64,000 nucleotides of DNA from Halopiger aswanensis (lineage in GTDB: Archaea; Halobacteriota; Halobacteria; Halobacteriales; Natrialbaceae): contig NZ_RAPO01000003.1 of the NCBI RefSeq assembly GCF_003610195.1, forward strand, positions 124,001 through 188,000, given 5' to 3'. Both the position numbers and the translations under genes were made by a program. Position 1 is the first letter of the stretch. Every line of letters starts with the position of its first letter. The notes below the pieces were generated by a model. That model was not told where the DNA came from. It searched no databases and was given only the letters and a program-made list of their open reading frames with translations. This document shows, piece after piece, positions 7,098 through 10,976 of the stretch.

Positions 7098-7187
7098 GTG
7101 ACCGGTCTCGGGACGCCGACGACGCGGGCGGCATGGGGAACGTTCACCGTCTCGGTGTGTCTGGTCTACGTCGGTTTCCGCTCGCTC
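7098..7187 (+). pseudogene. 5' half of a small membrane-protein gene split by the insertion
   Basis: A GTG at 7098 opens a 30-codon frame with a hydrophobic stretch (TFTVSVCLVYVGF). It reaches the left target duplication and then runs into the mobile element, where it meets a stop about 8 codons later. Its frame continues exactly in the 3' fragment at 10977-11105 if the element and one copy of the 8-bp repeat are removed, giving a 72-residue protein with two hydrophobic segments. An upstream in-frame stop at 7086-7088 limits the start to this GTG. Confidence 0.68.
7180..7187. repeat. left target-site duplication GCTCGCTC
   Basis: The octamer GCTCGCTC directly abuts the left terminal inverted repeat and is repeated exactly next to the right terminus at 10969-10976. 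Eight base pairs is the duplication size known for IS6-family insertions. Confidence 0.82.
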
Positions 7188-7279
7188 CGCCTTGTTGAAA
7201 CCCTCAAATAGTGATAGCTCGGATATCCACGATGGACACCTCGTGTGAAAAGGACAAAATACCGAAAAGACTAACGCTA

Positions 7280-7295
7280 TTTAGGCTGGCCTAAA
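7280..7295. promoter_or_regulatory. DtxR/SirR-type palindrome at the start of the binding-protein gene
   Basis: TTTAGGCTGGCCTAAA is a perfect inverted repeat apart from its two central bases. It matches the half-site TTAGGY...RCCTAA typical of DtxR-family iron-dependent repressors. It ends four bases before the GTG start of an iron-siderophore-type binding protein, so a bound repressor would cover the transcription start of a leaderless message. Iron control is inferred from motif plus gene type. Confidence 0.65.
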
Positions 7296-7299
7296 ACAT

Positions 7300-8532
7300 G
7301 TGGCAGACGATTCCAGCAACCACACGGCACCGACGCGCAGAGGCTACATAAAACACGGCGGCGCAGTCGTTGGCGGCGGACTGCTTGCCGGCTGTGCCAG
7401 CGACTCCGGGTCAGAGAACACTACTACCGGGACGACTACTGGGGAGGAGGCGACTCCCAAGGGCAGTTCGTACTCGGCGACGCTCGCGCCAGCAGACAAG
7501 GTCACGCTCGAGTCGGAACCTGAAGACATCTTCACGATGCTAGGCCACCACGCCGACATGGTGCTGGCGCTCGGTCGGGGCGACGATATGAACGCGATGT
7601 TCGCGCCAGAATACCACCAAGGGTTGTACCGGAAGTTAACACACCACTTCGACGGGGTTTCTATCGACTGGGAGGGGTTGTACAACTCGTGGCCACCGAA
7701 GAAGGAGAAACTGTACGAACTCGACAGCAACGTCCACATCGCTGACCCGGCGAAAGTTGCGACTGCCGATGGATGGGACAACAGCGACGTACAAGAGATT
7801 GAGGAGAACGTCGCGCCGTGGTTCGGAAACACGCTCAGTGGCACCAACCGGACGCCGCCAGCGGGCTGGAAGGACCAGTACGAGTACTACACGTTGTGGG
7901 AGATCTTCGGCAAGGTCGCACAGTTGCTCGGAGCGGACGAACGGTACCGGGCTCTCGCGTCCGTCCGTGACTCGATGGTTCAGACCATCGAGGAGAACCG
8001 CCCACCGGAGAGCGAGCGACCGACCGCGGCGCTGGTGTTGTTCTCGTCGTCGGAAGATCACAAGGGATGGGGCTACAAGATGAACCATCCGGGCTACTAC
8101 GCCGCACACACGCGTCCGATGGGGGTCACCGACGCGCTGTCCGAGGCCTTCGGAGAGGGATACGGCGAGAGCGGGCGAAACATGCCGTTCGACTACGAAC
8201 TGCTCCTCGAAGCGGACCCGGACGTGTTGCTCGTCCTCGGTTCGATGACGGCGTATTTCAACCCTGACGAGATTCGGAAGACCCTCGAAAACCATGAGGT
8301 AGCCAGCGACCTCACCGCCGTCAAGGAGGGCAACGTCTACGCGCAGGGTGCGCGACGACAGGGTCCGATTCTCAACCTGTTCCAGCTCGAGATGACTGCG
8401 AAGCAGCTCTACCCCAACCAGTTCGGCGAGTGGCCCGGCTACCAGAACGGTAAACCGTATCCACAGATTCCTGAAGAGGAGCAACTGTTCGACCGCCAGC
8501 GTGTCGCGAATATCATCAACGGAGACCTCTAA
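7300..8532 (+). CDS. iron-siderophore-type ABC substrate-binding lipoprotein
   Basis: 410 residues. Residues 12-32 form a Tat-type lipoprotein signal: twin Arg (TRRGYIK), a short hydrophobic stretch and lipobox LLAGC with Cys32 as the lipid site, followed by a Ser/Thr/Gly linker. The mature part is a helical-backbone (class III, BtuF/FecB-like) binding protein; VTLESEPEDIFTMLGHHADMV and ANPDVLLVLG-like segments (EADPDVLLVLGSM) are characteristic. The GTG at 7300 is used because the ATG two bases earlier is out of frame. No permease or ATPase gene is adjacent, so it must pair with a transporter encoded elsewhere. The ligand is likely a ferric siderophore or similar chelate, supported by the DtxR-like palindrome. 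Confidence 0.85.
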   Translation: MADDSSNHTAPTRRGYIKHGGAVVGGGLLAGCASDSGSENTTTGTTTGEEATPKGSSYSATLAPADKVTLESEPEDIFTMLGHHADMVLALGRGDDMNAMFAPEYHQGLYRKLTHHFDGVSIDWEGLYNSWPPKKEKLYELDSNVHIADPAKVATADGWDNSDVQEIEENVAPWFGNTLSGTNRTPPAGWKDQYEYYTLWEIFGKVAQLLGADERYRALASVRDSMVQTIEENRPPESERPTAALVLFSSSEDHKGWGYKMNHPGYYAAHTRPMGVTDALSEAFGEGYGESGRNMPFDYELLLEADPDVLLVLGSMTAYFNPDEIRKTLENHEVASDLTAVKEGNVYAQGARRQGPILNLFQLEMTAKQLYPNQFGEWPGYQNGKPYPQIPEEEQLFDRQRVANIINGDL

Positions 8533-8842
8533 CAGCGGAATTGCCCTTCTTTTCTCGACATACTCCCCACGTATCGGCGGATTCTGTGCGAAGCGGTTGG
8601 GACAAACGAAAGAGAATTTGGCCCTGTTAAGCCCTTCAATTGGTGATAGGCTGTCGAAGCCGTACTGAATACATAGCGCGAATGTCGCACGACATCTGGC
8701 TTAATCTACGAAGAGAGAGAGAGAGTGGTCGATTATTACAGGTCAAACAGTTATCCGAGAAGCGACCGATCATCCGATTGCTGTCAAAGAGCAGTACAAT
8801 CCCATACAATTTATTTCACTATCTCACGTGTAATATCGCCTG
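8533..8842. other. AT-rich spacer inside the mobile element
   Basis: 310 bases without a convincing gene; a short open frame at 8640-8843 has no protein-like character. It contains an internal copy of the element's left terminus (8620-8650) and the promoter region of the PiT gene, with the TATA-like TACAATTTATTTC just before 8820. Confidence 0.6.
8620..8650 (+). repeat. internal IS6-like terminus, same orientation as the left end
   Basis: The segment starts GGCCCTGTTAAGCCCTTC and ends GGTGATAGG. It aligns without gaps over 31 bases to the outer left end (7188-7218), sharing CTGTT/TTGTT, CCTTCAA/CCCTCAA and GTGATAG, and its first nine bases differ from the right terminus by one base. A third, shorter match (AAATAGGTGATAGCA) lies at 10816-10830. 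This suggests the element is a mosaic of at least two IS6-like units. Confidence 0.55.
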
Positions 8843-10021
8843 ATGATTGAGACCATTCTTCTCATTGGTATTGTCGCCTCAATTTTTGTCGGGTTTAATA
8901 TCGGCGGTTCATCGACCGGGATTGCGTGGGGTCCGGCCGTTGGTGCTGGAGTCGTGAAGAAGACGACGGCAGCAGCAATCATGACGGTTTTCGTCTTTCT
9001 CGGCGGTTGGACCGTTGGTCGCAACGTGATGGAGACGCTCAGTGAGGGCATCATCACTATCGATCTCAATCTGGCGGCAGGCGTTGCCGTCCTCTTTTTC
9101 ATCGGGTTAGGAATTCTCGTCGCCAACATCTTCGGCGTCCCCGTCCCGACATCAATGACGACCGTCGGGGCGATTGCTGGACTCGGACTGGCGACTGACA
9201 CCCTCAACTATGCGTCAATGGCAGAAATCATGACATGGTGGTTCGTCACGCCGTTCATCGGGTTCTGGATCGGCGGGGTTATCGGACGCTACATTTATCC
9301 CGAGGTCAACCGTCGGGTCCAGATTGAGAAGTCCGACGGACCATTGCTCGTTGTTGACCGGAGGGGACCGATTCCGACACCGGCTCTCGGCCCAAACACG
9401 ACCCGGTCGGAACTCGTCAGTACGACAGTCGTTTTGCTCATCGGATGCTATATGGCGTTCAGTGCCGGAGCGAGCAACGTCCCAAACGCGGCTGCACCGT
9501 TAGTTGGTGAGGCCGGCGGCTTGGACACGGACATCGCAATCGTCATCGCCACACTCGCTATCGGTCTCGGCGGGTTTACCATTGCTCGTCGCACGATGGA
9601 GTCAGTTGGCGGTGAACTGAGCGACATCCCGCTGCTGGCAGCCCTGTTCGTCATGGTAATCGCATCGACGATCACGACCCTGCTCTCTTGGATTGGCATT
9701 CCGATTAGCCTCGTGATGGGGACGGTGATGACAATCGTCGGCATTGGCTGGGGCCGTGCAACCCGTCCGATTACAGTCCGTGAGGCAGTGACACGCGATG
9801 TCGAAGACGCCGAGATCGTCCCCGGCGCGATTACTATCGGAGAGATTGAAGACGACCCGGTAGCCCCAATCGGTGAAGAGGAACCCGTGGAAGTCCTCGA
9901 AACGGGTACTCTCTTTAACCCCCAAGCGGTCATCAAATACGTCTCGATGTGGATTATCGGTCCAGCGATGTCTACGATCTTGGCCTACGGATTCTTTCGC
10001 CTTATCCCGGGAGTCGCCTGA
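8843..10021 (+). CDS. PiT-family inorganic phosphate (or sulfate) permease
   Basis: 392 residues, about ten hydrophobic segments. The two inverted-repeat signatures of the PiT family are present: GFNIGGSSTGIAWGPAVGAG near residues 17-36 and FSAGASNVPNAAAPLVGEAG in the second half (about residues 207-226), corresponding to the GANDVANA-type motifs. A hydrophilic loop (about 155-190) separates the halves. It should move phosphate, or in some archaeal relatives sulfate, by cation symport. No PhoU-like partner is adjacent. It lies 38 nt upstream of a UspA gene, a common haloarchaeal pairing, and both share the lower-GC character of the mobile element. Confidence 0.88.
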   Translation: MIETILLIGIVASIFVGFNIGGSSTGIAWGPAVGAGVVKKTTAAAIMTVFVFLGGWTVGRNVMETLSEGIITIDLNLAAGVAVLFFIGLGILVANIFGVPVPTSMTTVGAIAGLGLATDTLNYASMAEIMTWWFVTPFIGFWIGGVIGRYIYPEVNRRVQIEKSDGPLLVVDRRGPIPTPALGPNTTRSELVSTTVVLLIGCYMAFSAGASNVPNAAAPLVGEAGGLDTDIAIVIATLAIGLGGFTIARRTMESVGGELSDIPLLAALFVMVIASTITTLLSWIGIPISLVMGTVMTIVGIGWGRATRPITVREAVTRDVEDAEIVPGAITIGEIEDDPVAPIGEEEPVEVLETGTLFNPQAVIKYVSMWIIGPAMSTILAYGFFRLIPGVA

Positions 10022-10059
10022 CGAGGGGGCTTAGGTAGCTGGATAACGTTGTTGGGAAT

Positions 10060-10488
10060 ATGCTCTCCCGAATTCTCGTTCCGATGGATGACTCCGAACA
10101 TGCCAGTCACGCTCTTGAGTACGCTCTCGACAATCACCCCGAAGCGGAGATTACAGTCTTACACGTCGTCGGCGTCCCGTCGATGATGATGGGAGAGGCA
10201 GTCAGTCTCGCTCTCGACGACAATATCAATGAAGCTGCTGCCGACCACGCTGAACCCGTTTTTGAACGTGCCCGCGAAATTGCCAACGAGCGTGATCGAG
10301 AGATCGATACAAGTATCGGAATCGGCCATCCAGCCCGGGATATTCTGGACCGAGCCGAAGATTACGATACGATTGTACTTGGAGCTCACGGCGAGGACTG
10401 GAACCGAGCGACACGCCGGTTTCTCGTCGGGAACATCACGGAGACCGTGTCCAAACGAGCACCGATTCCTGTTATCATTGTCCGTTGA
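10060..10488 (+). CDS. UspA-family universal stress protein
   Basis: 142 residues, single Usp domain. It opens MLSRILVPMDDSEHASHALEYAL, with the nucleotide-contacting Asp after the first strand, and ends with GAHGEDWNRATRRFLVGNITETV, matching the ATP-binding G-2x-G-9x-G(S/T/N) motif. It follows the PiT permease by 38 nt on the same strand and is probably co-transcribed, so a regulatory role for the transporter is plausible but unproven. Cytoplasmic. Confidence 0.9.
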   Translation: MLSRILVPMDDSEHASHALEYALDNHPEAEITVLHVVGVPSMMMGEAVSLALDDNINEAAADHAEPVFERAREIANERDREIDTSIGIGHPARDILDRAEDYDTIVLGAHGEDWNRATRRFLVGNITETVSKRAPIPVIIVR

Positions 10489-10968
10489 GTCGCTCGTGAC
10501 ATTACCCTGTTGGGCGGAAGTGGTAGCGGATTGACCGTTGAATAAATATCAGAATTTCACTGCACCATTCATGATTATATTGATTTGATAGTAGATGCTC
10601 GTTCCTCTTCCTTCGGTTCGTTATAACCGTATCAAACTGGCGGTCGAACTTAGAGACCACCGGACAGTGAGTACCGAAACAGGTGACCGGCGCATGACCT
10701 TTTCGACGTGCTTCTAAGCAAAAGATGCGATTGCAAATCACATCCGTAGGTTCCGATCACGATGAGAGTAAACTCATGTCGATCTGTCTTTTCAGAACGA
10801 CCTCACTAATGTCATAAATAGGTGATAGCAATGCAGCACAACGTTCATACGTGGAGTGAGCAGATAATCCACTGATTTCGGCGTAAGACAAACGAAGTCA
10901 TCGTGCTGAACTCACCCTCTGTATCTCGCACGCCGTTCCTGTCAACCCCTGAGTGTTTCAACAGAGCC
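10489..10968. other. gene-free AT-rich right arm of the mobile element
   Basis: 480 bases with no convincing coding frame. It carries a degenerate copy of the left-end motif (AAATAGGTGATAGCA, 10816-10830) and a GACAAACGAA decamer (10887-10896) that also occurs at 8601-8610 just before the internal terminus. The right terminal inverted repeat closes it at 10950-10968. No transposase remnant is recognisable by eye. Confidence 0.6.
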
Positions 10969-10976
10969 GCTCGCTC
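10969..10976. repeat. right target-site duplication GCTCGCTC
   Basis: Exact copy of 7180-7187, immediately outside the right terminal inverted repeat. GC content jumps back to the chromosomal level from here on. Confidence 0.82.

Follow-up and report, generated by a model that had tools for sequence, protein, structure and literature searches.

Mobile insertion cassettes are known from bacteria, in which qnr-carrying cassettes stand beside those derived from the insertion sequence (IS) IS231. Such cassettes, among them MIC231 of the Bacillus cereus group, have IS-type ends and passenger genes but no transposase, and are activated by a cognate transposase (sections of PMC2266710 and PMC3129680). 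We examined a unit with these features at positions 7188-10968 of a 64,000-nucleotide stretch of the Halopiger aswanensis genome (the window; contig NZ_RAPO01000003.1, positions 124,001 to 188,000) and suggest that it is most probably a composite mobile insertion cassette with ISHla2-like ends of the IS5 type, here called A and B, an 8-bp target duplication and cargo but no transposase, whose mobility would have been supplied in trans by an IS5 transposase. The haloarchaeal cassettes described below differ from MIC231 in using the IS5 and not the IS4 family, in their archaeal host, in having two unlike conserved ends and in their very diverse cargo, which includes a TATA-binding protein (TBP) and a tyrosyl-tRNA synthetase (TyrRS).

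ISHla2-type IS5 elements share the terminal GGCTCTGTTGAAA with the unit, which differs from them in its cargo and its cassette-type B end; the DDE transposase that such elements hold between their ends is absent, and the ends alone match. The haloarchaeal miniature inverted-repeat transposable elements (MITEs), ISH2 and the Haloquadratum families, likewise have inverted ends, no transposase and mobilization in trans, but MITEs are short and non-coding, those of Haloquadratum being described as smaller than 500 bp except for the ISH2-type ones of about 520 bp, whereas the unit has 3,781 bp and contains three long, complete genes (sections of PMC3119063 and PMC10264941). The same sections report that an ISH2 together with part of an ISH8 transposed as a single unit, with one duplication for both, which may be regarded as a precedent for a composite. 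A compound transposon has two complete flanking IS copies; the unit has short ends only and no IS5 transposase, other IS families not having been searched. Transporter IS elements combine a transposase with passenger open reading frames (ORFs), as do L057 and the H. aswanensis element L025 discussed below, whereas the unit has no transposase. What the unit does have are two marks of a mobile insertion cassette, namely inverted ends common to IS5 elements with a target duplication of the length that the IS makes, and passenger genes without a transposase.

Exact 8-bp direct repeats, GCTCGCTC on both sides, abut the termini CGCCTTGTTGAAACCCTCA and GGCTCTGTTGAAACACTCA, which match in inverted orientation at 15 of 19 positions. 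The GC content is about 0.47-0.63 within the unit and 0.63-0.70 in the flanks, Pfam recognizes genes for a substrate-binding protein (SBP), a PiT permease and UspA (Peripla_BP_2, PHO4/PiT and UspA), and tblastn with an IS5 transposase query found no IS5 transposase inside. An earlier note on this DNA had described the repeats, the termini, the lower GC content, the three cargo genes and the lack of a visible transposase, and was right on each, the last for the IS5 type. The features are as follows, G009 being a congeneric genome.

7180-7187, no strand: left copy of the 8-bp target duplication GCTCGCTC (from the sequence), with GCTCACTC at the equivalent place in G009
7188-7217, plus strand: outer left end, A type, CGCCTTGTTGAAACCCTCAAATAGTGATAG (alignment), in which the inner conserved motif of other A ends is decayed
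7281-7294, no strand: TTAGGC-TG-GCCTAA, an inverted repeat directly upstream of the SBP gene (from the sequence), also present in G009
7300-8532, plus strand: SBP gene, Peripla_BP_2 (Pfam), intact in G009
8620-8713, plus strand: A-type internal left end belonging to the second module, beginning GGCCCTGTTAAGCCCTTCAATTGGTGATAG (alignment), less decayed in G009 (GGCCCTGTTGAAACCCGCAATTGGTGATAG)
8843-10021, plus strand: PiT-family permease gene, PHO4 (Pfam)
10060-10488, plus strand: gene for a UspA-type universal stress protein (Pfam)
10849-10968, minus strand: right end, B type, with the terminal inverted repeat GGCTCTGTTGAAACACTCA and a conserved subterminal block (alignment)
10969-10976, no strand: right copy of the target duplication GCTCGCTC (from the sequence)

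This pair ranked first in the window among candidates with an 8-bp direct repeat and a 19-nt inverted repeat at a spacing of 0.5-8 kb. Taken alone, the anatomy is only modest evidence, because 12 simulated windows (order-2 Markov) contained three pairs with 15/19 matches, or about 0.25 per window. It is the homology of the ends to other copies that raises the observation above chance: a 17-nt terminus pattern (at most 1 mismatch) has 10 matches in the H. aswanensis genome, one of them the right end of the unit, and the reversed control has 0.

A 30-nt left-end pattern (at most 1 mismatch) gave 58 matches in 32 of the 125 genomes of the family, with 0 in every row of the control. Exact left-end matches were found in 20 stretches of a collection of 84,980 species, all from haloarchaea or a halophilic archaeon; in seven of the 20 the end pair has matching flanks, all at 8/8, and several of these coincide with places in the family survey. 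The neighborhoods of the 58 seeds, two of which are truncated at contig ends, were all examined, together with those of two further sites in the H. aswanensis genome. For 29 of the 58 seeds there was a partner end whose flanks agree at 6/8 bases or better (exactly for 18), and a transposase lay within five of these 29 and was missing from 24. Since L145 was counted twice, the 29 correspond to 28 elements, the 18 to 17 and the 24 to 23; among the 23 without a transposase, L150, L153 and L154 appear to share a single insertion event, and six have lengths of 380-613 bp. Of the 39 inward-facing pairs in loci L132-L188, 31 show flank agreement at 6/8 or better (18 at 8/8), compared with 1/195 in a shifted control; the 39 include L186 and L187 of the H. 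aswanensis genome, which have looser ends and lie outside the 58 seeds. One of seven outward-facing pairs matches at 8/8, and it is formed by a neighboring end beside an IS5 insertion. At L156 3368-4894 an IS5 element lies beside another end, and AGCATTTT occurs before the element and again between it and the second end.

Hand-chosen A ends (27 sequences) and B ends (26 sequences) align with conserved subterminal blocks. Both types have in the alignments an inner motif near GTGCTGAATACAGAG, about 40-57 bases inward, a shared motif that is possibly a second transposase site.

An IS5-type transposase is encoded in seven of the 35 elements compared, of which L134, L151, L170, L174 and L178 have the A end. 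The transposases of these five are 67-82% identical to that of a 1,644-bp element in the H. aswanensis genome (C4:145501-147144), which has an exact 8-bp duplication, GTCGATTG, and contains, besides a methyltransferase-like ORF, a gene for an intact transposase of 273 aa. This transposase, the one intact IS5-type transposase of the ISHla2-like group found in the genome, scored 203 bits against NF033579 (IS5 family; cut-off 140) and is 79% identical to that of ISHla2. Exact 8-bp duplications flank some IS5 elements with shared ends (L025, L134, L170 and L174), as well as a copy of the IS5-type element on a plasmid of Halobacterium salinarum KBTZ03, which has an IS6 gene inside.

The unit is made of two modules, A-SBP followed by A-PiT-UspA-B, which are separated by the internal A end at 8620, oriented like the outer left end. 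G009 shares this site: it contains the left duplication, the A end, the SBP gene and, up to about 8678, the internal A end, after which its sequence resumes in the right flank at about 11037, the right half of the unit being missing; identity to the window is 88-89% in the flanks and 93% in the element part. Because G009 has the SBP module and the internal A end at the equivalent site, both were already there when the two species separated, and the insertion predates the split. A deletion would be the simplest account of the missing right half in G009. The likeliest route to the present arrangement would be that a PiT-UspA cassette entered the SBP cassette and that the two B ends, being similar, then underwent homologous recombination, by which one was lost and a single outer target duplication remained. 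The element in the window is probably now immobile.

For sister cassettes, insertion as a unit is supported by empty sites. Among joined-flank queries for eight of them, those for L142, L146, L174 and L179 gave junction-spanning matches in congeners; those for L145, L175 and L177 gave none, and L178 is a repeat and thus uninformative. The L146 site is precisely empty in G045 and present as a gap-free target with 2 mismatches in G043, so that the support is base-precise for one cassette; the matches for L142, L174 and L179 have indels at the junction. For the unit in the window, an apparent empty site in G020, where the flanking genes are about 145 bp apart with no insert, was rejected, the intergenic DNA being too different. 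So was the 75-codon ORF restored by joining the flanks: a different frame stays open for longer (117 codons), the stretch is interrupted by a stop in G009, and six loci match only weakly.

The cargo can differ between the same ends. In the two Natrialba genomes G046 and G044, cassettes L146 6875-8544 and L141 1472-2358 occupy the same 8-bp target. Identity is 95% and 99% for the flanks and, for the ends, 99.1% (116 bp) and 97.0% (132 bp). No long match connects the interiors, one cassette holding TyrRS with a 107-aa ORF and its counterpart a 170-aa ORF. The simplest account would be cargo exchange between fixed ends by homologous recombination; two independent insertions into this site may also have produced it. 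Recombination on B ends of this kind would explain the A-SBP-A-PiT-UspA-B order in the window with one outer duplication.

The best DNA match of the PiT-UspA module (1425 bits, 79%) is in G007, where L057 (1-4911) is a whole 4,911-bp contig with IS5-type terminal repeats at both edges. Besides Usp, PiT, UspA and Usp it encodes an IS5-type transposase of 273 aa, which is intact; element ends at both contig edges would fit a multicopy element.

The unit might alternatively have descended from an autonomous L057-like IS5 transposon that took up passengers and lost its transposase. L057, with PiT-UspA and an intact transposase between such terminal repeats, and the IS5 element with a methyltransferase-like passenger ORF in the H. 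aswanensis genome are in line with this descent, but the right end of the unit is of the cassette type B, unlike the transposase-proximal end of L134, L170, L174 and L025, and tblastn found no transposase remnant in the unit, so we consider it quite unlikely. It is also unlikely that the modules are chance neighbors, an SBP cassette that lost its right end beside a separately inserted PiT-UspA cassette at 8620-10968. The complete A end at 8620 and the B end at 10968 would bound a cassette of normal size (2.35 kb); yet the bases before 8620 (GAGAATTT) mismatch GCTCGCTC, whereas the outer pair matches at 8/8, and the internal A end is already present in G009.

The earlier note had assigned the unit to the IS6 family, and 8-bp duplications and GG...cTGTt ends are indeed also IS6 features (sections of PMC7986276 and PMC6807381). 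The IS6 gene inside the H. salinarum copy points the same way. However, the transposases found in elements with the same A end are of the IS5 type, where an IS6/IS26 element would have an IS6 transposase between its ends, and we replace the IS6 reading by IS5 because five such elements encode relatives of the IS5-family transposase of H. aswanensis. Among 30 chosen ORFs from the surveyed cassettes and related ones of the same genome, a Pfam scan matched no transposase family, that of IS6 included, although no search of the elements aimed at IS6 was made. An IS6 unit is therefore very improbable. The note's description of a non-autonomous cargo unit with transposon ends and an 8-bp duplication, presumably moved in trans, is retained, but the note had missed the internal left end at 8620.

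Several observations weigh against a composite cassette with IS5-type ends. The first base of the outer left end is C instead of G, and the inner motif of this end has decayed. The ends of the IS5 element at C4:145501-147144 resemble cassette ends in the terminal repeat only, and the end pairs found for the ISHla2 copy and a Halobaculum copy have no 8-bp duplication, so that one of the three named copies has one. In the survey, 29 of the 58 seeds have no partner end with matching flanks; for five of these a partner end exists but its flanks agree at less than 6/8, and L162 and L182 lie near contig ends. The right half of the unit is absent from G009, which leaves the proposed order of events conditional. 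No clean empty site was found for the locus when the joined flanks were compared with 125 family genomes, 121 of which gave some match; among the matches listed, the flanks reach the insertion point only in H. aswanensis itself and, for the left flank, in G009, and elsewhere stop over the flanking genes. None of the six fetched loci with the left flanking gene, five of them also with the right one, aligned across the junction. The earlier note had named the lack of empty sites together with the lack of a second copy of the termini as speaking against a mobile unit; the former is what we found, but many copies of the termini are present elsewhere with different 8-bp duplications. As to the PiT-UspA module, matches are widespread in the family, one in G084 is nearly equal to the best (1419 bits, 79%) with no such ends in 10 kb around it, and L057 has no flanks on which a duplication could be assessed and has ends other than the A/B blocks.

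The sister cassettes carry diverse cargo. The transposase-less cassette L150 7093-8431 encodes a TBP (Pfam and NCBIfam on the L150 copy), and cassettes L153 1220-2553 and L154 1198-2531 are of similar size with an ORF of equal length. The TyrRS in L146 (NF006330, 407 bits, cut-off 220) is a second copy, the other being elsewhere in the genome and 76% identical. Pfam also recognized GNAT, PDDEXK_4, RibD_C, an RPB9-like zinc ribbon, SnoaL and a BAT/HTH_10 regulator, and further cargo comprises an MMPL transporter with a regulator and a berberine-bridge-type oxidase with a regulator; at least nine of the 30 scanned ORFs have no Pfam name. L187 of the H. aswanensis genome (C2:1049389-1054376; L187 1890-6877) is a 4,988-bp unit with McrBC-like genes, a 7/8 duplication, a right end with 3 mismatches and a left end closely like the outer left end in the window. 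Its AAA protein scored about 20 bits, below the cut-offs, against the IS21 helper and transposase ATPase models of NCBIfam. PADLOC, run on 10 cargo ORFs, gave two matches, in L139 (PDC-S26 models, best 45 bits) and L187 (REase_II, 30 bits).

The cargo types of the window unit are not special by themselves, and the main matches to SBP, PiT and UspA in its own genome are at 65-71% nucleotide identity. The SBP gene is open in both H. aswanensis and G009, with dN of 0.042, dS of 0.140 and dN/dS of about 0.30, and has been under purifying selection since the two species split. SBP homologs at 84-85% identity (L059 and L060) have no ends with 3 or fewer mismatches. The N terminus of the SBP (TRRGY...LAGC) we take to be a Tat signal with a lipobox, and the inverted repeat at 7281-7294 presumably resembles an iron-dependent repressor box, so that the SBP gene may be under iron control via TTAGGCTGGCCTAA.

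Mobile insertion cassettes and passenger-carrying IS elements are known kinds, and their extension to an archaeal IS5 group appears new. According to a passage of a 2008 paper, families other than that of the IS231-type elements had not by then shown the modular passenger character of the latter (PMC2266710). A passage of a 2019 paper counts composite DNA transposons that carry passenger genes among the classes not detected in archaea (PMC6563490), and one haloarchaeal transposon passenger gene is mentioned in part of PMC10544981. In the open-access literature we found no description of this haloarchaeal cassette set or of any IS5 one, and an earlier description elsewhere is possible.

Tentatively, and with doubt, we propose that haloarchaea hold genome-wide exchangeable cargo cassettes, whose fixed A and B ends would serve both IS5 insertion and recombinational swapping or joining in place. 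If so, the cassette system would have produced both the composite in the window and the cargo difference at the Natrialba site, and it would spread core-type genes such as those for TBP and TyrRS, the latter there as a second copy. The cargo difference between conserved ends makes such exchange directly testable. The cassettes offer a concrete route by which haloarchaea may gain nutrient transporters, regulators and core-type genes.

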